A stretch of 64,000 bases of DNA from Salipiger bermudensis. Its GTDB lineage: Bacteria; Pseudomonadota; Alphaproteobacteria; Rhodobacterales; Rhodobacteraceae. The stretch is taken from contig NZ_JAHVIA010000007.1 in NCBI RefSeq assembly GCF_019801965.1, positions 248,001 through 312,000 on the forward strand, read 5' to 3'. Within the stretch, counting starts at the first letter, position 1; the number at the start of each line of letters is the position of its first letter. The notes beneath the pieces were generated by a model. That model was not told where the DNA came from, did not search any database, and saw nothing but the letters and a program-made list of their open reading frames with translations. Made by a program: the position numbers and the translations under genes. Of this stretch, positions 1,658-13,077 are shown in pieces.

Positions 1658-1951
1658 CAGACACTCCCGATTTGAGAAAAAATTGTATCCGACGGTGCAC
1701 CGGCGGGACAGACTCAGTGTCGACGAAAAAGCGGTTCCAGATCAAGGGCCTGAAAGCGGTCAGCTCCGCGATTTGCCCCGGCCGCGACCGCCCCGCCGCC
1801 ATCACCCACCAAGTCCAACACATGCACGTTGACATATATCATGGCTTTCGCATGTGACTTTGTGGCCTAATTCAGTTGGGACGGCCAGGGGAAAGACCAT
1901 GGGAAGGGTAATCCAAAGCGGTCCCGGGAGGAGCCTTTGGGAGACGGTACT

Positions 1952-4855
1952 ATGGCAACCTTTAACTCGGCCCTGCACGTGTTTTCGGTCGATGACCTGA
2001 CAGCGACGTTCAGCGGCATTCAATTTCCGGACTATCCTGAAATGCTCGACACCGCAGGTGCGGTGGTCGAGCCCTACGTAAGCCACGCGGGCACCATCCT
2101 GTATGGCATCGACAATGAATTCGGCTTCCATGTGACCGATTTCGTCGGCGCCGAGGAGAAGGAGCTCGACGGCGACTTTGCCGAAGGCTACGCGGGCAAT
2201 ATCTATGGCGAGGGCGGCGAGATCGTCGGCATCGCCGTGCGCAACGCGGAAACCGACCTGTTCCTGTCCGGTGCGCCCTTCGGCACATGGTCTCTGGGGC
2301 TCGGCGGCTCGACCGTGAAAGCCTCGACAGAGCACTACACCACCATGCAGGCGTTGCTGTCGGACCAGGCCTATCCCGGTGACGCAGACGCCATTGGCGG
2401 GCTCGACGACGATCTCAAGATGGCGGATCTCTATGTCGCCGGAGACGGCAGCCTGACCGAAGGTCCGCTGCACGACTTCTACGTCAAGGAAACCGTTGCG
2501 GCGCTTCAGGCGGCGATGGACAGCCCTGACCCGGCGCTCGACACCGTGCTTTCGGATGTCGATTTCGACCGCGACGGCACGCTCGACACCTATCGCCTGA
2601 CCAAGACCACCGTCGATTTCGACAGCGACGGCGACGGCGTCCCCGAGGCGATCACCGTCGGCGCGGTGGATATCGGCAATGACGGTTCGCTCGACGTGGT
2701 CGACAGCTTCCTCAACGGCTACGGCGGCGAGGCCGACCTGACCGACCTGCTCGAGCCCAACGAGTCCAGCGTCACCTACAATATTGCCTACGGGCAGGAT
2801 TACTCGGTGACCCTGAAGGACGATGGCAAGCTGCTCTATCGCTGGGGCGAGGCGGTGAAACGGCCCAATGACGTCCGCATGGAGGTCAATATCGACCTGC
2901 CAGAGGAATGGACCGTCGACGAGGATGGCAACGGCATCGCCGACAGCCTCGAGGATGCCTCCGGCGGCTTCGTGGTGACCAAGGCCGAGCTGATCGTGAC
3001 CCACACGATCACCAACAACCCCAACGACCAGATCCGGCCGGAGGATTACGAGAACGAGGCCGCGATCGGCCGGCTTCCGTCCTACTATATCGTGACGGAT
3101 CCCGACGATCCCGACAACGAGCTCTGGGTTTCCCCGGTCGACACGTTCAACGGTCTTGGCGACGCGCTGCCGAGCTACTTCGTGCTCGACGCGGATGGCG
3201 AGATCGACATGAGCGTGGTCGGCGGCACCGCGGTCTACAATCCCGACGGGGTGCTCGTGGGCTACCGCAACGAGGATGCCGAGGGCAACGCGGTCGGCAC
3301 CGTGCTGCGTGACATGTCGCTGGTCGCGGCTGCCGCGGCGGCGGATCTCGACTTCAGCACCGCGGACCTTGCCGAGGGCTTCACCGACTCGTGGTACACC
3401 TCGACCGACCGCGAGCCGTTCGAGTGGTCCTATGACATGTACCCGGACGATCCCTATGCCAACGTGTTCGTCAGCTTCCGCGACGCCGATGCGGCTGCGG
3501 ATGCCGGCTATACCGAGGACAGCCTCGTCTCCGGTCCGCGCTGGCGCCTGACCCCGAACAAGTTCGGGCAGGACCTTCCGGGCCTCGAGATCCCGCTGGA
3601 GCCCAACAGCGAACCGCCGTTCCAGAAGGACAACATCAAGTATGACACCGGCGAGCTGACCACCACGACGATCAACCTTCTCGACTGGGATGGCGACTCT
3701 CCGCTGGCCAACAGCACCGGCTGGATGGTGATCGACCCGACCCGCCTCGATGTCGATGCGGACGGGATCATCGACGACGGCTGGAGCGCGGTGAACGGCA
3801 CCCTGGGCGCCGGTGACGCGATGCCCACGGGCCTGATCCTGTCGGCGGTGACGCCGAACGGCACGGTGCTCGAGCAAAACGTTTTCGACACGGCGATCTA
3901 CGTGAAGGGCGACCGCCAGGACGCGGCCGATCTCTACGACATGCAGCTGGTGATCGAGTATGAGCCGAATGTCTACGAAGGCACGATCGGGTCTGTCCAG
4001 CAGGTCTCGGGCCTGAATCACGAGGAGATGACGGTCAACTTCCTCGGCGGCAGCTTTGCCAATGCCGTGGTCTTTGCAAGCCCCCTCAGCCGCAATGGCT
4101 GGCAGGCGGCAACGGTGGAGATCTCCGAGATCACCTCGACCAGCGCGACCATCCGGGTCGACGAACCGGACGGCTACGACGACTGGCACGTTGCCGAGCA
4201 GGTCAGCCTGGTGGCATTCGAAGAGGGTGTCTGGGAGATCGGAGACGGAAGCGTGCTCGAGGTGGGAACGACCGTCTTCGAGACTGGCCCGACCAACGTG
4301 TTCCAGACGGTCGAGTTCCAAACCACCTTCTCGGAGGCTCCGGTGCTGATGCTCCAGATCCAGACCGCGAATGGCCCGGAATGGGAGATCGCCCGCGTCG
4401 GACAGGTGACCGAGACCGGTTTCACCTACCTCATCGAAGAGGAGGAAGGTCAGACCAACAATGACCACGGCAGAGAGTTGATCGGCTATGCCGCCATTGA
4501 CGCCGCCGCCGCGGATGGCCTGATCGACTGGGACGGCGTCGCCGCACAGGCCTACCGGACCGGCCCGGTGGTCGACGATCAGCCGACGGCCTTCACCTTC
4601 GACGAGTCGCTCGGCACCGACCCGCTCGTGTCCGGGATCCTCAGCAGCTACCACGGCTGGGACACCGCGAACCTGCGTCTTGTCGACATGGAAGACGATG
4701 GCTCTGCCGCGACAGCCTATTTCATGGCGAGCGAAGAAAGGACGCTCGACAATGAAACAGAGCACAACCCGGAGGACGTGGCCGGCCTCGCCTTCGAAGG
4801 TGCGGCGGTGCTCTATGGGGAGACCTACGTGGTCGACGAGATGATCTTCGTCTAA
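1952..4855 (+). CDS. Large acidic protein with DxDxDG motifs and three lectin-like C-terminal repeats
   Basis: A 967-residue, very Asp/Glu-rich protein of unknown function. Start ATG 1952 is preferred over an in-frame TTG at 1937 because GGGAG at 1939-1943 sits at proper spacing. Calcium-loop-like motifs occur near residues 204 (DFDRDGTLD), 222 (DFDSDGDGV), 323 (DEDGNGIAD) and 600 (DVDADGIID). Three related beta-rich units follow, starting near residues 697, 785 and 884. Each has a F...P(V/L) strand, a V/I-T-x-(T/G)(A/F)T strand and an E-rich segment, and they resemble H-type lectin beta-sandwiches. No Sec signal is visible. The hydrophobic end DEMIFV would suit type I secretion, which is an inference. 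No secretion genes are adjacent and a terminator follows. Confidence 0.8.
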   Translation: MATFNSALHVFSVDDLTATFSGIQFPDYPEMLDTAGAVVEPYVSHAGTILYGIDNEFGFHVTDFVGAEEKELDGDFAEGYAGNIYGEGGEIVGIAVRNAETDLFLSGAPFGTWSLGLGGSTVKASTEHYTTMQALLSDQAYPGDADAIGGLDDDLKMADLYVAGDGSLTEGPLHDFYVKETVAALQAAMDSPDPALDTVLSDVDFDRDGTLDTYRLTKTTVDFDSDGDGVPEAITVGAVDIGNDGSLDVVDSFLNGYGGEADLTDLLEPNESSVTYNIAYGQDYSVTLKDDGKLLYRWGEAVKRPNDVRMEVNIDLPEEWTVDEDGNGIADSLEDASGGFVVTKAELIVTHTITNNPNDQIRPEDYENEAAIGRLPSYYIVTDPDDPDNELWVSPVDTFNGLGDALPSYFVLDADGEIDMSVVGGTAVYNPDGVLVGYRNEDAEGNAVGTVLRDMSLVAAAAAADLDFSTADLAEGFTDSWYTSTDREPFEWSYDMYPDDPYANVFVSFRDADAAADAGYTEDSLVSGPRWRLTPNKFGQDLPGLEIPLEPNSEPPFQKDNIKYDTGELTTTTINLLDWDGDSPLANSTGWMVIDPTRLDVDADGIIDDGWSAVNGTLGAGDAMPTGLILSAVTPNGTVLEQNVFDTAIYVKGDRQDAADLYDMQLVIEYEPNVYEGTIGSVQQVSGLNHEEMTVNFLGGSFANAVVFASPLSRNGWQAATVEISEITSTSATIRVDEPDGYDDWHVAEQVSLVAFEEGVWEIGDGSVLEVGTTVFETGPTNVFQTVEFQTTFSEAPVLMLQIQTANGPEWEIARVGQVTETGFTYLIEEEEGQTNNDHGRELIGYAAIDAAAADGLIDWDGVAAQAYRTGPVVDDQPTAFTFDESLGTDPLVSGILSSYHGWDTANLRLVDMEDDGSAATAYFMASEERTLDNETEHNPEDVAGLAFEGAAVLYGETYVVDEMIFV

Positions 4856-4909: not shown

Positions 4910-5160
4910 CGGGGAACTCTTGGCCTGTCGCGACATGCCTGGCCGGCACGATGCCACGAATGCGAATATACACGCATCCATGCTCAGCGCCTCGTTGCGC
5001 TTCTCGAAGCGACTGAACGCTCCGCCCCGCATCCCCGCCCACGCGACTTGGCCTGCCGGCCACTCCACGAAGGGCACGCCCGCACCACGAGGGAGCCGCT
5101 TCCGGGTTGTAGAGGGGGCCCTGCCCGCCCTATCTAGAGGCGGAACAGATGGAGGTGCGT
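4910..5160. other. Intergenic stretch upstream of pth
   Basis: Between the terminator and pth I see no convincing gene, RNA or repeat. It presumably holds the pth promoter, but no clear -35/-10 pair stands out. Confidence 0.5.
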
Positions 5161-5877
5161 GTGCAGATCTTCGTGGGGCTGGGCAATCCCGGCGGCAAAT
5201 ACGCCAGGAACCGGCACAATATCGGCTTCATGGCGCTCGACCGGATCGCAGAGGATCACGGCTTCGGGCCGTGGCGCGCGCGGTTCCAGGGCGAGGTCAG
5301 CGAGGGCCGGCTCGGCGGTGACAAGGTGCTCCTGCTCAAGCCCGGCACCTTCATGAACCTCTCCGGCCAGGCGGTCGGCGAAGCGATGCGCTTCTTCAAG
5401 CTCGAGCCCGCCGACGTCACCGTGTTCCACGACGAGCTCGATCTCGCGCCCGGAAAGTGCCGGGTGAAGTCGGGCGGCGGACACGCGGGGCATAACGGGC
5501 TGCGCTCGATCCACGCCCATATCGGCGAGGCCTATGACCGGGTGCGCCTCGGCATCGGCCATCCCGGCCGCAAGGATCTGGTGGCAGCCTATGTGCTGCA
5601 CGATTTCCACAAGGCCGACGAGGATTGGCTCGACGACCTGCTGCGCGGCATCTCCGATGGTGCCGACGCATTGGCGCGGGGGGACACCGGCAAGTTCCAG
5701 AACGCCGTGGCGCTGCGGGTCAACCCGCCGCGCTCCTCGGGCGGCAAGCAGGAGAAGCCTGCGCCGCAAGCTGCCAAGCCCGGGCAAGCCAAGCCGAAGG
5801 CCGAGGGGGCGCAAGAGCGCATGCCCCGGCCCGACGACCGCTCGCCCCTGCAGAAGCTCGCCGACAAGTTCCGCTAG
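5161..5877 (+). CDS. pth: Peptidyl-tRNA hydrolase
   Basis: Hydrolyses peptidyl-tRNA released from stalled ribosomes, recycling tRNA in the cytosol. The N-terminus [22 protein letters not shown] carries the catalytic His of [24 protein letters not shown] and [12 protein letters not shown] follow in family order. The start is taken as GTG 5161, because homologues begin M-(Q/K)-(I/L)-F and GGAGG lies at 5151-5155. An upstream in-frame ATG at 5149 would add MEVR. The protein is about 238 residues, with a Lys/Pro/Ala-rich tail beyond about residue 190 that is longer than in E. coli Pth. Confidence 0.95.
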
Positions 5878-5959
5878 AGCGCGGCTGACGGCGCCGTGAC
5901 CGCGCGGCGCTGGACAGCGCCTGCGCGGTTTGCCACGCTGCCCGAGAGGGAGACGCGCA

Positions 5960-6331
5960 ATGCTTGAAAAGGATCAGGCGATCAACGTGCTGGGCGGGCC
6001 GCTCTCGCCCTGCTCGATGGCGCCGCTCACCGGCTACTTCCGGGACGGCCACTGCAACACCTGCGCGCAGGACACCGGCAGCCACACGGTCTGCGCGGTG
6101 ATGACCGCCGAGTTCCTCGCCTACTCGGCTTACGTCGGCAACGATCTCTCGACGCCCCGGCCGGAGTTCCACTTCCCCGGCCTCAGGCCCGGCGACCCGT
6201 GGTGCCTCTGCGCCGCGCGCTTTCTGCAGGCCCATGACGAGGGCTGCGCCCCCAAGGTCTCGCTCGAAGCCACCCACATGCGCGCGCTCGAGATCGTGCC
6301 GCTCGGGGTGCTGCAGAGCCACGCAGCCTGA
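5960..6331 (+). CDS. DUF2237 family protein
   Basis: A 123-residue cytosolic protein of the DUF2237 family; function unknown. It is rich in conserved Cys and aromatic residues: CNTCAQDTGSHTVCAVMT, then FLAYSAYVGNDLSTP and the signature FPGLRPGDPWCLCAARF, ending VPLGVLQ. The ATG at 5960 has GAGAGGGAG upstream as ribosome binding site. It lies 82 bp after pth on the same strand and may be cotranscribed. Paired cysteines could bind a metal, but this is inference. Confidence 0.85.
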   Translation: MLEKDQAINVLGGPLSPCSMAPLTGYFRDGHCNTCAQDTGSHTVCAVMTAEFLAYSAYVGNDLSTPRPEFHFPGLRPGDPWCLCAARFLQAHDEGCAPKVSLEATHMRALEIVPLGVLQSHAA

Positions 6332-6412
6332 GCGACGCGCCTGGGCCGTTGGCCCCGAGCTCTTCGCCTCAGCCCCTGAGCCAGTCGCAACGCCCCTGCC
6401 CCCGAAACGTGA

Positions 6413-6446
6413 ACCGCCCCGCGGCGGCCAAGCGCTGCGGGGCGGT
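6413..6446. terminator. Hairpin between convergent genes
   Basis: A perfect 10-bp stem (ACCGCCCCGC / GCGGGGCGGT) with a 14-nt loop lies between the DUF2237 gene (plus) and the EamA gene (minus). There is no long T run, so intrinsic termination is only probable. Confidence 0.5.
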
Positions 6447-6469
6447 CTCGTGTCTTTATATGGGAGCGG

Positions 6470-7354
6470 TCAGGCGCGGGCCGAGCTGCGGCGCTCCTGA
6501 GTCACCGCCTCGTCGAAGATCAGCCACAGCCCCGAGCCAACAACCAGCGTCACGCCGAGCATCGTGCCCACGGCCGGGATCTCGCCGAAGCCAAACCAGC
6601 CGATCACCACCATCCAGACGAATTGCAGGTTCATCAGCGGCGTCGCCACGTAGGCCGGCAGCAGGCGCAGCGCCTCGACCGAAAGCCAGCGGGCGGCGAA
6701 GAGGAACACCGCGTAGGTCAGCACCCAGCCCAGATCCGAAAGCGGCATCGGCTGCCAGACGAAGGGCAGTGCCACGCCCATGCTCAGCATCAGCGCGAGG
6801 TTCGGCCAGAAAACCTGCGCCAGCGGCACGCGCTCGATGCGGGCGATGTAGCGCGCGGCGATCATCGAACCGGTGCCCGAGAAGGCGGCGAACAGCGCCC
6901 AGAGATGGCCCGGATCGAGCGAGAGCTCGCCCGCCGGCATCACGAAGAGCAGACCGCCCGCGCCGAGCAGCAGCGCCATCCAGACCGCCGGCCGCACCGG
7001 CTCGCCGAGCGCCGGGCCCGACATCGCGGCGGCGATCAGCGGCACCAGCGCGATGAACAGGAAGACATCGGCGAAGGGAAGCAGGCGGAAGGCCTGGAAG
7101 AAGCCGATGGCCGAAAGCACGGTCAGCAGCGAGCGCAGCGCCATGGCGCCGCGGCAGGTGGTGCGCAGGGTCTCGCCGTTCTTGCGCGAGGCGCCGAGCG
7201 ACATCAGCAGCACCAGCCCCGCCGACAGCGCGAAGAGCTGCGGCGCGGCGTAGCCACCGGCGATGAGCTTGGTGATGCCATCCGCCGCCGCGATGGCACC
7301 GGTGTAGAGCGCGACAAGGGCGGCGCCGACGATGGCTGTTCGTGTCCCGTTCAT
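6470..7354 (-). CDS. EamA/DMT-superfamily transporter
   Basis: A 294-residue inner-membrane protein with about ten hydrophobic helices and the two-fold EamA repeat typical of drug/metabolite exporters. It begins MNGTRTAIVGAALVALYTGAIAAADGITK. Helices such as LFALSAGLVLLMSLG and VWMALLLGAGGLLFVMPAG are clear, and the tail is short and basic (TQERRSSARA). Its ATG overlaps the stop of the upstream gene by 4 bp (ATGA at 7354-7351), so the two are translationally coupled. It is the last gene of the unit that starts with the repeat peptide at 9262 and is a natural candidate exporter for that system. The substrate is not knowable from sequence. Confidence 0.9.
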   Translation of the reverse strand: MNGTRTAIVGAALVALYTGAIAAADGITKLIAGGYAAPQLFALSAGLVLLMSLGASRKNGETLRTTCRGAMALRSLLTVLSAIGFFQAFRLLPFADVFLFIALVPLIAAAMSGPALGEPVRPAVWMALLLGAGGLLFVMPAGELSLDPGHLWALFAAFSGTGSMIAARYIARIERVPLAQVFWPNLALMLSMGVALPFVWQPMPLSDLGWVLTYAVFLFAARWLSVEALRLLPAYVATPLMNLQFVWMVVIGWFGFGEIPAVGTMLGVTLVVGSGLWLIFDEAVTQERRSSARA

Positions 7355-8409
7355 GCGTTGCCTGCCCGGGCGAAGCCCTCGAAGAATGCGTCAAACCGAG
7401 GCGAATGATCGGCCAGCTGATCAACCACGTCAAGAGTCTGCGGCGACAGCCGCGCCCCCATGCGCTCACGCATCCCGGCCCAGTCGGCGCTGCGGGCAGA
7501 GCCTTCGGCAAAGAGCGCCTCGGAGAGCTCGCGCAGCGGTGCGACACGCTGGGCACGCTGGAAGCGCATCCGCCCGCCGACCAGCGGCTTGTTGAACGGC
7601 TTGCCGCCGATCACCGAGGCGTGCCAGTTGCAGACGAGGAAATCGTGGTAATCGTCGGCGATCGAGAGGGTCTCGCCGCTTTCGACGCTGAAGAGATGGG
7701 TCTCGCGGTCGAGCCAGATCGTCCAGAGCGGTGGCGGCACCTCGCCGGCATAGCGCAGGGCGATGCAGATCTCGGCCAGCAGATCGGAGTTCTGGTCGAG
7801 ATAGGCCAGGTTGCCGGCGAAGTAGAGGCTGTTGATCGCCTCCTCGTCGAGCCCGGGATCCTGGCGACCGTATTCGCTGAGGTAGAAGACGATGTGGGTG
7901 AGCTCGTAGGCGGCCTTCTTGTTGGGCAGCGCGAAGGTCTGCGAGCGGGCGCAGAAGGCGCGCAGCCGGTCGGCCAGCCCCTCGTCGTCTTCGCTGACAT
8001 GGCCGCGGCGGGCCAGAAGGCGGCGGGCTTCCATGCGCTGAAGGTCCGACAGCTCGGCATCGGCAAAGCCCTGGCGCGCGGCGCGCTCGGTGAGCTTGGC
8101 GCCGGTGTCGCCCTCCATGCCCAGATCCTCGAGATCGAGGGTGAGCGAGAGCAGGAAGCGGTAGTATTGCGGGAAGAAGGCCATGCGGTCTTCGACCGAT
8201 TTGTAGAACCCGCGCAGCGGCGCGAGTGCGGCCCGGGGCACGTAGGTCCCGGTGCATTCCAGGATGTTGAGAAGCTCTGCGTTCTCCTTCAGCCAGAACA
8301 CGTCATCCTCGCGCCGCCGGTTGGTGGCGAAGCTCTTCACGAGCGCTGCGACTCCCGCATCCTGGGATGCGACGGGGGCCTTCGGGCGAAGTGCGATAAC
8401 GTTGGTCAT
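7351..8409 (-). CDS. Unrecognised 352-residue protein, partner of the repeat peptide
   Basis: I do not recognise a characterised family. The protein is soluble and largely alpha-helical. After a short variable N-terminus it reads FWLKENAELLNILECTG (residues about 38-54), FFPQYYRFLLSLTLDLEDLGM (about 78-98) and YELTHIVFYLSEYGRQD, then a C-terminal DDYHDFLVCNWHASVIGG-type segment. His and acidic residues in ELTHIVFYL and DDYHDF could form a metal or catalytic site, but that is a guess. No MNIO (DUF692), radical-SAM CxxxCxxC, YcaO or LanM motif is visible. It lies 85 bp downstream of the repeat peptide gene and is coupled to the transporter. A maturation, chaperone or immunity role is inferred from position only. 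Confidence 0.8.
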   Translation of the reverse strand: MTNVIALRPKAPVASQDAGVAALVKSFATNRRREDDVFWLKENAELLNILECTGTYVPRAALAPLRGFYKSVEDRMAFFPQYYRFLLSLTLDLEDLGMEGDTGAKLTERAARQGFADAELSDLQRMEARRLLARRGHVSEDDEGLADRLRAFCARSQTFALPNKKAAYELTHIVFYLSEYGRQDPGLDEEAINSLYFAGNLAYLDQNSDLLAEICIALRYAGEVPPPLWTIWLDRETHLFSVESGETLSIADDYHDFLVCNWHASVIGGKPFNKPLVGGRMRFQRAQRVAPLRELSEALFAEGSARSADWAGMRERMGARLSPQTLDVVDQLADHSPRFDAFFEGFARAGNA

Positions 8410-8446
8410 GACTGATTTCCCTGTGTCGTTCTGTTTCCGGCCGCAC

Positions 8447-8476
8447 GCGGGCGTCTCATCCCCTCAAGACGCCCGC
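8447..8476 (-). promoter_or_regulatory. Hairpin between the repeat peptide gene and its partner gene
   Basis: A perfect 10-bp stem (GCGGGCGTCT / AGACGCCCGC) with a 10-nt loop, with no U run after it on the minus strand. It could attenuate read-through or protect the 3' end of the upstream message, so that the peptide is made in excess of the partner protein. Confidence 0.5.
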
Positions 8477-8494
8477 AGCGATGGCATCCTGGGC

Positions 8495-9262
8495 TTATGC
8501 GCAGGAGGTGAAGGAGCCGGTCACTTCACCGTTGACGGCGCGGGTGCCGCCGGGGGCTGCGCAGGAGGTGAACATCTCGACGGCGTCGCCGGAGATCGCC
8601 TCGGAGGCTTTCGGCTCGGCGCAGGAGGTGAACATGCCGGTGGCGTCGCCTGCATCGGCCGAGCTGGTGGTCGGGGTTGCGCAGGAGGTGAACATCTCCA
8701 CCGCGTCGCCGGCATCGGTCGAGCTGGTGGTCGGCGCGGCGCAGGAGGTGACCATTTCGACGGCATCGCCGGTCAGGGTCTCGGAGGCCTTCGGCTCGGC
8801 ACACGAGGTGAACAGGCCGGTGGCTTCGCCGGTGGCGACGGAGCCGGTGGTCGGGGTGGCACACGAGGTGAACAGGCCCACGACATCGCCGGTTGCGGTC
8901 GAGCTTGTGGTCGGTGCGGCGCAGGAGGTGAACATCTCGACGGCATCGCCGGTCAGCGCCTCGGTGGCCTTGGGCTCGGCGCAGGAGGTGTAGAGGCCGG
9001 TGGCTTCGCCGGTCGCGGTCGAGCCGGTCAGCGGCGTGGCGCAGGAGGTGTAGAGGCCGGTCGCCTCACCTGCGGCGAGTGCACCGGTGACCGGGGCGGC
9101 GCAGGAGGTGAACATATCCACAGCTTCGCCGGTCAGGGCGCTGCCGAAGCTCTCGGGTGCGGCGCAGGAGGTGAACATCGAGGCACCTTCCCCACCGAAC
9201 ATGTCGGCACCGAAGTCTTCGGTGATTTCTTCAATGATTTCATGCTGGAGTTGTGCAGACAT
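8495..9262 (-). CDS. Twelve-core repeat peptide, candidate multicore RiPP precursor
   Basis: A 255-residue protein: a 27-residue acidic leader-like start (MSAQLQHEIIEEITEDFG...) followed by twelve copies of (E/G/D/S)(M/L/S)(F/Y/V)TSCA(A/T/E)P. The only cysteines are C33, C54, then every 20 residues to C254, and the protein ends one residue after the last Cys. Linkers follow a three-unit cycle (AAP-TTSS, ATP-TTGS, AEP-KASE), giving 60-bp and 180-bp DNA periods. ATG 9262 has AAGGAAGGG at good spacing. The coding strand is supported by synonymous changes such as TCC-TGC versus TCG-TGT that keep T-S-C. The plus strand has stops in the competing repeat frame. There is no signal peptide. Modification of the Cys and cleavage between cores is inference. 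The function is unknown. Confidence 0.85.
   Translation of the reverse strand: MSAQLQHEIIEEITEDFGADMFGGEGASMFTSCAAPESFGSALTGEAVDMFTSCAAPVTGALAAGEATGLYTSCATPLTGSTATGEATGLYTSCAEPKATEALTGDAVEMFTSCAAPTTSSTATGDVVGLFTSCATPTTGSVATGEATGLFTSCAEPKASETLTGDAVEMVTSCAAPTTSSTDAGDAVEMFTSCATPTTSSADAGDATGMFTSCAEPKASEAISGDAVEMFTSCAAPGGTRAVNGEVTGSFTSCA
8501..9180 (-). repeat. 60-bp coding tandem repeat with 180-bp higher-order period
   Basis: The repeat peptide gene contains twelve units, eleven of them spaced exactly 60 bp, each encoding one TSCA motif. Every third unit is more alike than neighbours, which suggests expansion by duplication of three-unit blocks. Confidence 0.85.
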
Positions 9263-9357
9263 GGGGTAACCCTTCCTTGTGTGGCGTTTCCGATTTGGCA
9301 CGCTCAGGGTTTCCTCCAATGCATGTTTCTGGCAATATAGTTTCTTGTTAGGGTTGA

Positions 9358-9363
9358 ATTATA
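9358..9363 (-). promoter_or_regulatory. Candidate -10 box for the repeat peptide operon
   Basis: TATAAT reads on the minus strand about 96 bp before the peptide start codon, in an AT-rich patch. No good -35 is visible at 17 bp. A DnaA-box-like site at 9370-9378 falls in the spacer. This is a weak call. Confidence 0.3.
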
Positions 9364-9369
9364 CACGAG

Positions 9370-9453
9370 TTATCCACATGCGAATTAAGACCTAAAAGAC
9401 ACAAAAAGAACACAATTCGAAGTTGTCCACAGGTGAATAATTTCTGTGGATAA
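9370..9453. promoter_or_regulatory. Cluster of three DnaA-box-like 9-mers
   Basis: TTATCCACA occurs exactly at 9370-9378 (plus) and at 9445-9453 (minus strand). A one-mismatch TTGTCCACA lies at 9423-9431. All sit in an AT-rich intergenic region between the divergent repeat peptide gene and xth. The rest of this 319-bp gap shows no gene. DnaA-dependent regulation is inferred. Confidence 0.55.
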
Positions 9454-9581
9454 GTTTTTGCGCCCTGTTGAAACCCCCTCCACCCACCCGAATCCGGGGC
9501 GAATCAATGGGCGGAAATCGGCCGCGGCCTTGCTCCCGCGCTCCGCTTCGGCGATAGCTTGCTCAAAATTCGGAGGGCCAA

Positions 9582-10364
9582 ATGAAGATCGCCACCTTCA
9601 ACATCAACGGCATCAAGGCGCGCATCGGCGCCCTGACCGACTGGCTCGACGAGGCCCAGCCCGACGTCGCGCTGCTCCAGGAGATCAAGTCGGTCGACGA
9701 GGCTTTTCCTCGCGAGCACTTCGAGGAGCGCGGCTACCAGGTCGAGACCCACGGCCAGAAGAGCTTCAACGGCGTCGCCATCCTGTCGAAGCTGCCGCTC
9801 GAGGATGTCACCCGCGGCCTGCCCGGCGATGACAGCGACGAGCAGGCGCGCTGGATCGAGGCGACGGTGATGGGCGATCACCACGCGGTGCGGCTCTGCG
9901 GCCTCTACCTGCCCAACGGCAACCCGGTGCCGGGCCCGAAATACGACTACAAGCTCGCCTGGATGGAGCGGCTCGAAGCCCGCGCCCGCGAGCTGCTGGC
10001 CAGCGAGATGCCGGCGCTGATGGCGGGCGACTACAATGTCATCCCGCAGGCCGAGGACGCCGCCAAGCCCGAGGCCTGGACCGAGGACGCGCTCTACCTG
10101 CCGCAGACCCGCGCCGCCTTCCGCCGCATCCTGAACCTCGGCTTCACCGAGGCCTTCCGCGCCCGCACCCAGGGGCCGGGCCATTATTCCTTCTGGGATT
10201 ACCAGGCCGGTGCCTGGCAGCGGAACAACGGCATCCGCATCGACCACCTGCTCCTGACTCCGCAGGCGGCGGACCTGATGACCGACGTGCAGATCGACCG
10301 CGACATCCGCGGCCGCGACAAGCCCTCCGATCACGTGCCGGTCTGGATCGACCTCGCCGCCTGA
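9582..10364 (+). CDS. xth: Exodeoxyribonuclease III
   Basis: An AP endonuclease and 3'-5' exonuclease for base-excision repair; 260 residues, the usual size. The fold runs from MKIATFNINGIKARI through LLQEIKSVDEAFP (catalytic Glu), GDYNVIPQAEDA, and C-terminal IRIDHLLLTPQ and KPSDHVPVWIDL with the catalytic Asp-His. The start ATG follows CGGAGGGCCAA. Divergent from the repeat peptide operon across a DnaA-box-rich gap. Close relatives include sequence-specific Xth variants, but nothing here suggests a different role. Confidence 0.95.
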   Translation: MKIATFNINGIKARIGALTDWLDEAQPDVALLQEIKSVDEAFPREHFEERGYQVETHGQKSFNGVAILSKLPLEDVTRGLPGDDSDEQARWIEATVMGDHHAVRLCGLYLPNGNPVPGPKYDYKLAWMERLEARARELLASEMPALMAGDYNVIPQAEDAAKPEAWTEDALYLPQTRAAFRRILNLGFTEAFRARTQGPGHYSFWDYQAGAWQRNNGIRIDHLLLTPQAADLMTDVQIDRDIRGRDKPSDHVPVWIDLAA

Positions 10365-10455
10365 TCCGGCCTCATCGCCCCCAAGCGCCTGCTTGCACCC
10401 GCTTCGCGCGGGGCTTACATCTTGTGGGAACGGACGACAGCGGAGACACGCCCCA

Positions 10456-10698
10456 ATGGCCATTGAAGCGACGGAAATCGAACAGCTCATCCGAGCCGAG
10501 TTTCCCGATGCCCAGATCACCATCACCGACCTTGCCGGTGACGGAAACCACTACGCCGCCGAGGTGATCGACGAGAGCTTTCGTGGCAAGAACCGCGTCC
10601 AGCAGCAGCGCGCCGTCTATGCCGCCCTCAAGGGCAAGATGGACGGGGCGCATGGCGAGCTGCACGCGCTGGCGCTGACCACCAAGGCGCCGGACTGA
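10456..10698 (+). CDS. BolA family protein
   Basis: An 80-residue BolA-like protein that, with a CGFS monothiol glutaredoxin, handles Fe-S clusters. It begins MAIEATEIEQLIRAEFPDAQITITDLAGDGNHYAAEVI and has the conserved helix-turn FRGKNRVQQQRAVYAALKGKM followed by ELHALAL. The ATG at 10456 follows CGGAGAC. The glutaredoxin gene follows 130 bp downstream, a classical BolA-Grx pairing. This short form matches the BolA2/YrbA type more than E. coli BolA itself. Confidence 0.92.
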   Translation: MAIEATEIEQLIRAEFPDAQITITDLAGDGNHYAAEVIDESFRGKNRVQQQRAVYAALKGKMDGAHGELHALALTTKAPD

Positions 10699-10828
10699 CC
10701 ACGGACAAACGCCCGCGCCCGGCGCATCGCGCAGAGCCGCGATGATCCGGCCTGGGCTTGTGAAGATACCGGCCACGCGTCACGCGGGGCCAGCCGGTGC
10801 CACGGCGCCGCGCAGACAGGAGAGAGAT

Positions 10829-11191
10829 ATGACCGACGCGAAGACGATGATCGACGAGACGGTGAAGTCCAACACCGTGGTGCTCTACATGAAGGGCACC
10901 AAGACCATGCCGCAATGCGGCTTCTCGAGCCGGGTGGCCGGGGTGCTGAACTACATGGGCGTCGATTTCCACGATGTGAACGTGCTGGCCGATGACGCCA
11001 TCCGTCAGGGCATCAAGGATTATTCCGACTGGCCGACGATCCCGCAGCTCTACGTCAAGGGCGAGTTCGTGGGCGGCTGCGACATCATCACCGAGATGAC
11101 GCTCTCGGGCGAGCTCGACCAGCTCTTCGAGGCCAACGGCGTCGAGTACAACAAGGATGCCGCCGACAAGATCCGCGAAGCCAACGCGTGA
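10829..11191 (+). CDS. grxD: Monothiol glutaredoxin, Grx4 family
   Basis: A cytosolic [2Fe-2S] carrier and transfer protein of 120 residues with the CGFS active site (MPQCGFSSRV) near residue 30. The WPTIPQLYVKGEFVGGCDI segment carries the glutathione-binding TIPQ and GG-CD residues. The ATG has AGGAGAGA upstream. The BolA gene lies just before it, so the pair likely acts together in Fe-S trafficking and iron sensing. A strong terminator follows. Confidence 0.95.
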   Translation: MTDAKTMIDETVKSNTVVLYMKGTKTMPQCGFSSRVAGVLNYMGVDFHDVNVLADDAIRQGIKDYSDWPTIPQLYVKGEFVGGCDIITEMTLSGELDQLFEANGVEYNKDAADKIREANA

Positions 11192-11218
11192 TCCGGCGGT
11201 TCGGGTTTTGAGATTTGG

Positions 11219-11250
11219 AAAGGCGGGCTCTCTGGCCCGCCTTTTCTTTT
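11219..11250 (+). terminator. Intrinsic terminator after grxD
   Basis: A perfect 10-bp stem (AAAGGCGGGC / GCCCGCCTTT) with a 6-nt loop and a T-rich tail. Confidence 0.9.
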
Positions 11251-11422
11251 GAGGCGGTGCCGCTTGTGAGGTCGGACCATGGGGCGCCGCCGCGCTATCG
11301 CCAGCACCCGGGACGGCGCTCCACACCATGAACCCCTGGGGGTCTCCCCGAGCCAAGAGCGCCCTTGAAACTCAGCTCCCAGCACTACCAAGTCGCCAGC
11401 CCGCGCAAGCACACTTCGAACA

Positions 11423-11607
11423 TAGACGCCGCCGCGCATCGCCGGTCCGCGGGCTGGCGATCCACACCCAGAATCCCTCGGTGCAGCCCGGCCACATCCG
11501 AAGGACCTCGAAGCTTGGGACCCAGCCCAGCCAAATCGCCGGCCCCGGGGGGCGGGTCATGCCGGAGGCATGCTTTCAGCATGACCGATGCGCGGCGGCC
11601 TACGGCC
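11423..11607 (+). repeat. Dispersed intergenic repeat, copy 1
   Basis: A segment of about 180 bp shared with 52.3-52.6 kb. Common blocks in order: AGACGCCGCCGCGCATCG, CGCGGGCTGGCGAT, AGAATCCCTCG, CCCGGCCACATCCGAAGG, ACCTCGAAGCTTGG, AAATCGCC and GATGCGCGGCGGCCT. It lies in the 482-bp gap between grxD and ccmE, where I see no gene. The start and end share inverted motifs (GCCGCGCATCGCC versus GATGCGCGGCGGC). Confidence 0.75.
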
Positions 11608-11673
11608 TTGTCCCGCGCTTGAAGCGTTCAAACGTGGCGTCGGTCCGCCGTCAGCTCAACGGAGCACCGAGCC

Positions 11674-12123
11674 TCAGCTGTTAGGATCCTGGTAGACGCC
11701 CTGCTCCTTCAGCGCGTCCATGACCTCTTTCGGCATGTAGGTCTCGTCGTGCTTGGCGAGGATCTCGGAGGCCACGAAGATGCCCTCGACATAGCGCCCG
11801 GTGCCCACCATGCCCTGGTTCTCGGCGAAGAGATCCGGCAGCACACCGGCAAACACCACCGGCACCGAGGCACCGCCATCGGTAACACTGAAGCGGATCT
11901 CGTGGCCGTCGCCGCGGATCAACGTCCCGCCCTCGACCAGACCGCCGATGCGGAAGGTCTCGTTGGGCGCCGGCGGCTCTGCCACCACCTGGCTCGGCGA
12001 GCGGAAGAAGTTGATGCCGTCGCGCATCGCGTAGCCGATCAGCGCGGTCGAGATCACCAGCGCGACCGCGGCCAGCGCAATCACCTGGATCCGGCGCTGT
12101 TTCTTGAGCGATTTGAGCGACAT
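11674..12123 (-). CDS. ccmE: Cytochrome c maturation heme chaperone CcmE
   Basis: Carries heme covalently in the periplasm and passes it to apocytochrome c. The 149-residue protein has a basic N-terminus (MSLKSLKKQRR), one membrane helix at about residues 12-32 and the OB-fold domain FRIGGLVEGGTLIR...RFSVTDG...PVVFAGVLPDLFAE. The heme-binding His is H125 with Tyr 129 in AKHDETYMP. Other ccm genes are not in the window, so it stands alone here. Its length is typical. Confidence 0.95.
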   Translation of the reverse strand: MSLKSLKKQRRIQVIALAAVALVISTALIGYAMRDGINFFRSPSQVVAEPPAPNETFRIGGLVEGGTLIRGDGHEIRFSVTDGGASVPVVFAGVLPDLFAENQGMVGTGRYVEGIFVASEILAKHDETYMPKEVMDALKEQGVYQDPNS

Positions 12124-12264
12124 GGTTTCTCCTCTCCTGATCGCGCTGGCACAGCCTGCACGACACGTCCCGTTCTGTCAGCCAGGACTATATGGCATGC
12201 AAAGCCCAGCATGTAAGTGCGACAGATCAATTTCCGGCGAGCACGCGCATCAGCGGGGCGCGGC

Positions 12265-13077
12265 TCAGGCCGCCTCGAAGCTGATCTCGCGGCGCAGGAA
12301 GCGGGTCGCATGGCCCGAGACCTTGCGCGGATCGCCGGTGGTCAGGAAGCGGCTCTCGCTGCCGCGGCCGATCATCCCCGGGTGGCGCTGCAGGTAATCG
12401 GCCAGCGACTCGGCCACGAGATTGGCCTGCGAATAGACCGCGACATCGGCTCCCAGCGCCTCCTGGAAAGTTTCCTGCATCAGCGGATAATGGGTGCAGC
12501 CGAGGATCGCCGCCTGCGGCTCGGGCATCTTACGCTTGAGCGCGTCGACATGGCTGCGAACCAGCGCCTCGGCGAGGATCATGTCGCCCTCCTCGATGGC
12601 ATCGACCAGCCCGCCGCAGGCCTGCGCCTCAACATCGACGCCGATCGCGCGGAACGCCAACTCGCGCTGGAAGGCACGGCTGCGCACGGTGGCCGGCGTG
12701 GCAAACAGCGCCACGTGCTGCACGGCGACCTCGCGCGGCGGCGAGTTGTCGCCCCACTGGCGCTCGGTCAGCGCCTCGATCAGCGGCACGAAGACGCCCA
12801 GCACCCGCTTGTCGCGCGGGATCCAGCTCTCCTGCATCCGGCGCAGCGCGGCGGCAGAGGCGGTGTTGCAGGCGAGGATGACGAGATCGCAGCCCGCCTC
12901 CCAGAGCCGCTCCACCGCGGCGGTGGTGAGGTTGTAGATATCGTCGGCATCGCGCACGCCGTAAGGCGCGTGGGCGCTGTCGGCGAAATACACGAAGGGC
13001 ACGTCGGGCAAGCGCTTGCTCACCGCGTCCAGCACCGTGAGCCCGCCAAGCCCGGAATCGAATACGCCAACCGCCAT
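12265..13077 (-). CDS. murI: Glutamate racemase
   Basis: Interconverts L- and D-glutamate for peptidoglycan. The two catalytic cysteines are in [12 protein letters not shown] and [10 protein letters not shown], with the N-terminal [15 protein letters not shown] and PYG motif (HAPYGVRD). The ATG at 13077 is preferred because AGGAGA precedes it at 7-8 nt. A GTG at 13098 would add seven residues. The product is 270 residues, normal for MurI. ccmE lies 141 bp downstream on the same strand. Confidence 0.93.

Follow-up and report, generated by a model that had tools for sequence, protein, structure and literature searches.

The precursors of cyanobactins and of dikaritins are multicore, each consisting of a leader followed by many core copies with conserved flanks. 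MslH, the epimerase of a D-Trp lasso peptide, is described as using His/Asp pairs for acid-base chemistry on the core of a ribosomal peptide (PMC10406935); a DUF6895 protein acts, by the title of its report, as an epimerase in the modification of lasso peptides (Shi et al., ACS Catal. 2026; ref. 371 of PMC13352647), and FlmA is reported as a 55-56-residue precursor used by a peptide arginase (PMC12703449). The RiPP work on Sulfitobacter, as outlined in PMC11278168, concerns DUF692 and P450 clusters. Here we describe, in a stretch of 64,000 nucleotides from Salipiger bermudensis (contig NZ_JAHVIA010000007.1; hereafter the window), a putative cassette formed by a multicore precursor with a leader and 12 copies of a short core, a DUF6902 protein and, as in most relatives, an EamA transporter. 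We propose that it belongs to a new multicore RiPP class in which DUF6902 modifies the core, probably by epimerisation, prior to cleavage, an explanation that we hold to be likely, though not securely so. The multicore interpretation of the precursor is well supported, and we infer the epimerase, cleavage and DnaA steps.

The features of the cassette are collected in Table 1. Each unit of the window precursor is formed by a G(D/E)xxxxF-like element, the core TSCA, xP and a variable linker, and the M-x-A-Q-x-K start is the consensus of 44 aligned arrays. A ribosome-binding-like purine-rich stretch can be seen by eye directly upstream of the ATG at 9262, which was preferred over a TTG start giving a longer frame of 274 aa since it matches the starts of the homologues. 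An open frame on the plus strand (8252-9340) was discarded as a second gene, being the complement of the repeat with no evidence for a gene. A preliminary description of the locus, made from the letters of the window, had reported twelve regularly spaced TSCA motifs, each holding the only Cys of its unit, and the translation bears this out: the first gap is of 21 residues and the other ten of 20, all 12 Cys lie in the motifs and the protein ends one residue past the last of them. The three-unit linker cycle noted there can likewise be read by eye, as AAP/ATP/AEP after TSC from the second unit onward. The leader proposed in that description is indeed acidic and Cys-free, its length of 27 residues being corrected to 28 before the first MFTSCA, or 30 before the first TSCA, and the lead-in (M/L)(F/Y) holds for most units but is not strict, with one MV and one SF. 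Residues 1-23 would act as the leader. As had also been claimed for T-S-C, T-S-C-A is kept through synonymous codon changes, and the core codons of the window vary only synonymously (Thr ACC 12/12; Ser TCC 10 and TCG 2; Cys TGC 10 and TGT 2; Ala GCC 9 and GCA 3). The window precursor matched no Pfam or NCBIfam model over cut-off, and no NCBIfam model at E<=0.01.

Table 1. Features of the cassette in the window and of small motif ORFs at DUF6895 loci (the latter in the coordinates of their own loci)
Feature	Position	Strand	Remarks
Precursor gene	8495..9262	minus	255 aa + stop, 12 TSCA cores; from the translation
Leader-like region	9194..9262	minus	residues 1-23, MSAQLQHEIIEEITEDFGADMFG, acidic, Cys-free
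Repeat array	8498..9193	minus	residues 24-255, 12 units, ends exactly at the last core
DUF6902 protein	7351..8409	minus	352 aa; candidate modifying enzyme; next gene after the precursor, same strand
EamA-family transporter	6470..7354	minus	overlaps the DUF6902 gene by 4 nt
Perfect DnaA-box 9-mer TTATCCACA	9370..9378	plus	116 nt upstream of the precursor start
DnaA-box-like site, one mismatch	9423..9431	plus	169 nt upstream of the precursor start
Perfect DnaA-box 9-mer TTATCCACA	9445..9453	minus	191 nt upstream of the precursor start
L157 motif ORFs	7104-7703	plus	two tandem ORFs; GALVGRWYVY, GSLVGPWFVL
L158 motif ORF	8437-8868	minus	AELAGPWYIY, GELVGPWFVL repeated within one ORF
L162 motif ORF	2488-2898	minus	EVAGYVFV, EVAGYIYT repeated within one ORF

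A scan of one genome for each of 84,980 species gave 346 relatives, and the best 80 of them were read (L048-L127), so that the named loci are those nearest to the window; the closest named relative found is Salipiger bermudensis HTCC2601, with 98% identity over DUF6902. A multi-copy core array lies upstream of DUF6902 in 80/80 of these named loci (the best 80 of 346 relatives), with 3 to 20 copies of the core in the readable part (six arrays are incomplete, three being interrupted by N runs and three by a contig edge), and the sameness of this architecture indicates that the repeat is more than chance. In the family, the unit runs from G(D/E)xxxxF through a core of four residues and a pair that is mostly A/G-P to a variable linker. 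The regular spacing of the Cys in the window is reflected in the homologues as a unit spacing of mostly 20 or 21 residues (546/576 gaps); the Cys itself is absent from most of their cores. The array stops exactly at the core in 53 of the 77 arrays without N, which suggests that the core has its C-terminal boundary there; five extra residues follow the last core in 18 of the 77, mostly of TSWS type. In L053 and L054, both with TSCA arrays, decayed forms such as SELTSAF or AELTATA stand in place of the G(D/E)xVxxF element, and the core is still fixed. Enemella evansiae is an actinobacterial name, and the record so titled (L127) carries a roseobacter-type DUF6902 locus, probably through misnaming or contamination.

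Of 149 genomes of the window's family (Rhodobacteraceae), 45 have DUF6902; in the order sample it occurs in 57 of 195 genomes (all 57 in that family, one below cut-off), and in the class sample in 5 of 385 (four in the family, and one outside it and below cut-off). The array is present in 43 of the 45 DUF6902-positive genomes of the family. A profile search across Rhodobacteraceae, as the preliminary description had recommended, matched the precursor in 41 of the 149 genomes (E<=1e-6), all of them among the 45 with DUF6902, and in 0/104 DUF6902-free genomes. Two DUF6902-positive, profile-negative genomes, G041 and G099, hold short divergent arrays of two units each; in G139, which has no precursor-profile match, the DUF6902 locus ends at the contig end, and in G039 a DUF6902 homologue but no array was found. 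G277 carries DUF6902 in pieces together with a remnant array containing an internal stop codon. The array was thus lost together with the conserved polar residues or the intact form of DUF6902 in both available cases, the two genomes G039 and G277. Of 49 residues checked that are otherwise invariant, the homologue in G039 (L046:4831-5925, plus) keeps 22; H172, D209, E213, C215, Y254 and H255 stand among the changed positions, with alignment gaps nearby, and the protein is possibly, to judge from these changes, a repurposed or decaying enzyme; the distant but intact member in L110 keeps 49/49.

In order to count cores without reference to the core, the units were located by the frame G-x5-F (with Y, V, M or I admitted for F if D/E follows G), which fixes the G at -7 and nearly fixes the F at -1 and so makes both columns uninformative. 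In the 76 of the 80 named loci that entered this count (L054, L068 and L085 were left out for N runs and L053 for its decayed element), the commonest four-residue core of the locus is carried by 626 of 635 units; this value supersedes the 651/652 exact cores obtained when the units were picked by the core itself, which is circular. The commonest form of the linker tetramer, in the same comparison, is found in only 244/561. Between the units of one array the codon identity of the core is 0.44-0.62, and the comparison of synonymous and nonsynonymous changes across units, which had been advised for this locus, demonstrates that 95-99% of the differing core codons are synonymous, the corresponding share being 19-31% in the linker (+6 to +11), 31-42% at -6 to -2, and 63% at +4 and 88% at +5 in A/G-P. 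Since the core codons differ and yet do so mostly synonymously, recent duplication does not explain the identity of the cores and selection does; judged from these codons, the core is under strong purifying selection within each genome.

Between species the core changes. Among the best 80 of 346 relatives, 22 modal cores occur in the 76 loci (TSGS in 20, TSWS in 13, SSGS in 8, TSGA in 7, TSGL in 6, TSCA in 2, and sixteen others), those of other genomes including PSGS, LSAS, MCCS, TTSM and IAGL; Ser, Thr, Gly, Trp, Ala, Leu and Cys make up most of the core residues. On the DUF6902 tree of 80 rows, a quick-method tree with 31 of 77 inner branches open and the deep branches partly unresolved, the core changes at least 30 times. 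Four of the 76 loci, all counted, hold two core types (L074, L099, L113 and L120); two types stand in one precursor in L113 (CSWS/SSLS), L120 (STSC/SSGS) and L099 (TSGS/TTSA). The TSC that the preliminary description had expected its homologues to conserve is therefore not conserved, while the fixity of the core within each genome survives. This behaviour fits a product that varies between species.

The window DUF6902 protein matches DUF6902 (PF21843) with 529.7 bits (cut-off 27) and DUF6895 (PF21836) with 73.7 bits (cut-off 23.8), and DUF6895 is matched by 64 of the 64 DUF6902 proteins scanned (E<=0.001). Residues Y168, H172, D209, E213, D252, Y254 and H255 of DUF6902 are invariant in 64 alignment rows and, by eye, both families share in the same order Y-x3-H, G, D-x3-E and Y-H; when the profile of DUF6902 was compared directly with that of four DUF6895 proteins, the similarity was weak (hhalign probability 13%, E 0.002). 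DUF6902 may recognise the repeated G(D/E)xVxxF element and act on the adjoining four-residue core of each unit, and the most likely chemistry, by analogy with DUF6895, would be an epimerisation that turns a core residue into its D form; we favour this because DUF6902 matches the family of the lasso-peptide epimerase reported in that title. It could instead be that the precursor is a multicore RiPP and DUF6902 performs another change (cyclisation, dehydration, prenylation or a change of the backbone), or only binds or presents the core; we consider this unlikely but a serious contender. The composition of the core would suit such chemistries, as would the predicted structure of DUF6902, which is almost all-helical (pLDDT 92.5) and, among the chains listed by VIA-align, is nearest mostly to alpha/alpha toroids; this fold serves many chemistries, and the toroids listed include terpene cyclases, a protein farnesyltransferase and complement C3d/C4d. 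A Z of 11.6, the best obtained, can, however, be reached by helical models that have no true relatives, and both the match to the reported epimerase family and the conserved His/Asp/Glu, suited to acid-base chemistry, point away from this option and towards epimerisation. Searches with DUF6902 gave 0 Foldseek matches for the model at E<=0.001, no PDB sequence match up to E 10 and, for plasmid carriage, no match in 72,556 plasmid records for the window protein. No paper was found by name for DUF6902, DUF6749 or PF21843 in a literature consisting mostly of papers outside subscription, DUF6895 was named in one paper, in its reference list, and a search by motif matched only an unrelated modelling paper.

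Of the 80 named loci (best 80 of 346 relatives), 62 have a gene for the EamA transporter downstream of DUF6902 and 18 lack it. The genes scanned in the window between 5149 and 11191 correspond to Pept_tRNA_hydro, DUF2237, EamA, DUF6902, the array, Exo_endo_phos, BolA and glutaredoxin, and the recurrent neighbours at the other loci scanned are Na/H exchanger, ArgS, HD hydrolase, SPOR, FAD-binding and EamA proteins. Lasso cluster genes (the leader-processing B protein and the macrolactam synthetase C) were absent from the neighbours scanned in window 5149-11191 and at the other loci, and nothing in the cassette was recognised as a dedicated protease or as a leader-binding protein. A protease from outside the cassette would cut after the core and before the conserved A/G-P, leading to the release of many copies of one small peptide, ending ...FTSCA in Salipiger bermudensis, which may then be exported. 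Rfam gave 0 matches at the gathering threshold in window 6000-12500, and a scan for promoters and terminators gave numbers close to those of shuffled sequence, with one promoter-like site, not at the precursor start, and three terminator-like ones. Elsewhere in the window, positions 1937-4855 (plus) encode a 972-residue acidic protein with Asp/Gly-rich stretches and no Pfam match at E<=0.001; an ORF resembling it occurs in 1 of the 80 named loci.

The DnaA boxes of Table 1 lie in the region that separates the precursor from the divergently oriented xthA. The DnaA-box consensus and the action of DnaA as a transcription factor in Caulobacter are described in PMC8203912. The two perfect TTATCCACA boxes found there are the only two of the window (0.06 expected by shuffling), and the TTATNCACA pattern retrieves the same two sites (0.13 expected, reached in 2/100 shuffles). 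At least one perfect box lies within 400 nt upstream of xthA in 57 of the 76 loci that have xthA in reach, with two or more in 28, and 90 of the 92 perfect boxes in the 80 loci (990,483 bases altogether) lie in these 400-nt regions. Allowing one mismatch, the proximal box is present in 59, the distal box in 58 and both in 55 of 74 upstream regions (73 named loci and the window), with start-to-start spacings of mostly 75-76 or 53-54 (background 0.0035 per 61 nt), and TTATCCACA/TGTGGATAA is the commonest 9-mer upstream of the precursor (54/73 loci; reversed control 0). The whole-genome count of TTATCCACA is barely above that of the reversed-pattern control (17 vs 13 in G000); it is the local clustering, and not the genome-wide count, that is special, and of the 17 copies in the window's own genome only the two at the cassette lie within 100 bases of each other. 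Perfect boxes at the cassette number two in G000, G141 and G313 and one in G055 and G294, and G009 has none there; they are absent in 19 of the 76 named loci with xthA in reach and in 9 of 15 further loci, the latter mostly divergent or broken. Putative DnaA boxes are thus present in the promoter region of the precursor, as is expected of a DnaA-regulated promoter, and its expression is probably governed by DnaA, which would act through two or three boxes about 110-190 nt upstream.

The boxes might instead constitute only a titration or replication-control site, or serve xthA, and be a mere neighbour of the peptide cassette, which we judge doubtful though deserving of real weight. Two to three boxes at a fixed spacing and the divergence of xthA from the box region would be in keeping with this, as would a second close box pair elsewhere in the genome of G141. 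Against it, a perfect box upstream of xthA is found in 0/30 genomes with xthA but without DUF6902 (drawn from the negatives of the family and order samples, one having only a split xthA), nor is there one in G039, with its degenerate DUF6902 and no array, and the distances of the boxes from the precursor start are fixed. A bolder extension of DnaA control is that the operon could deliver a burst, timed to each replication initiation, of a D-residue peptide of about five residues, specific to the species and made in many copies, as a signal linking replication to population behaviour in a RiPP class common to many roseobacters; the core would then be fixed within a genome and switch as a block between species. 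We would call this rather unlikely. To our knowledge no RiPP operon has been proposed to be under the replication initiator, and a literature search for 'DnaA box' with 'RiPP' gave no such title among the matches listed.

The main structural rival to the multicore precursor is an intact beta-solenoid, in which TSCA, TSGS or TSWS would form stacked ladders and DUF6902 would be a folding or assembly partner. Stacked ladders would also give a uniform change of all units in a genome, and AlphaFold2 (44 rows) returned a model with pLDDT 83 and pTM 0.77, with one coil per 20 residues and strands over the core; however, AlphaFold2 is described as giving confident but unrealistic solenoids for tandem repeats, even those of random sequence (PMC11795689). 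In addition, no PDB chain matches the model at E<=0.001 (best 0.25), W occupies the third core position in some loci and G/A/C/S in others, which is hard to reconcile with a shared interior, and all four core residues are fixed although strand neighbours should face opposite sides, and we regard the solenoid as quite improbable. A metallothionein-like protein binding metal through its Cys array, which the twelve evenly spaced Cys of the window precursor might suggest, is hardly credible, as a core Cys occurs in only 12 of the 76 loci, single Cys 20 residues apart are unlike metallothionein clusters, and the Cys-free cores of the other 64 loci (e.g. TSGS, SSGS, TSWS, TSGL, TSGA) lead us to reject metal binding or Cys chemistry for the family. 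The Cys is therefore not the point of the array, contrary to what the preliminary description had supposed. Its multicore RiPP-like precursor with a leader stands, by the linkage to DUF6902 and the selection on the core, and the finding is real and wider than could be seen from the window; the emphasis on Cys fails for the family.

Outside the DUF6902 genomes, DUF6895 over cut-off is rare (2/249), other samples giving 3/145, including one of these two, and 1/150, the other one. At three of four DUF6895 loci (L157, L158 and L162) small upstream ORFs carry short GPW/GRW/AGY motifs, and no motif ORF was found in the small locus of L161. These motifs recall GDAVEMF + core or G(D/E)xVxxF, by eye at three loci and with no statistic, and the ORFs are candidate precursors of a second, related peptide group. 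In L161 (571-3282, plus) the DUF6895 domain is fused to an APH-like phosphotransferase domain. The RiPP model of the FlmA family, NF052472, is matched by 3 of 44 arrays at E<=0.01 (best 1.7e-10), L086, scored singly, reaching 16 bits against a cut-off of 30; membership in that family was set aside, the window precursor having no match to the model. An FlmA-related search of the window's genome gave no match, but neither did its controls, so that little can be read from it. The Pfam matches of the 44 arrays (31 families at E<=0.01) look like repeat noise, with at most five arrays in any one of the 25 families listed.

If our proposal is true, a domain of unknown function, DUF6902, gains a function, the RiPPs gain a class whose core is very small and repeated many times over, and the family represents a natural library in which at least 22 core variants come with the enzymes that match them. 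A close likeness is to the DUF6895 protein titled a lasso-peptide epimerase, through the DUF6895 match of all the DUF6902 proteins scanned and the polar motifs shared by eye, and DUF6895 genes, like DUF6902, can adjoin ORFs with short repeated motifs. DUF6902 differs from DUF6895 in being a separate Pfam family whose matches over cut-off, among the samples scanned, all fall in the window's family, and from the titled epimerase in having a multicore array as partner and no lasso-synthesis gene recognised beside it. With MslH, as it is described, DUF6902 would share an acid-base action on a ribosomal core, although MslH has a calcineurin-like fold with Ca(II) and DUF6902 is predicted to be almost all-helical. 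Cyanobactins and dikaritins combine a leader with a multicopy core as here, but their enzymes differ, and in the present cassette each copy of the core, four to five residues long, is accompanied by a copy of the presumed recognition element.
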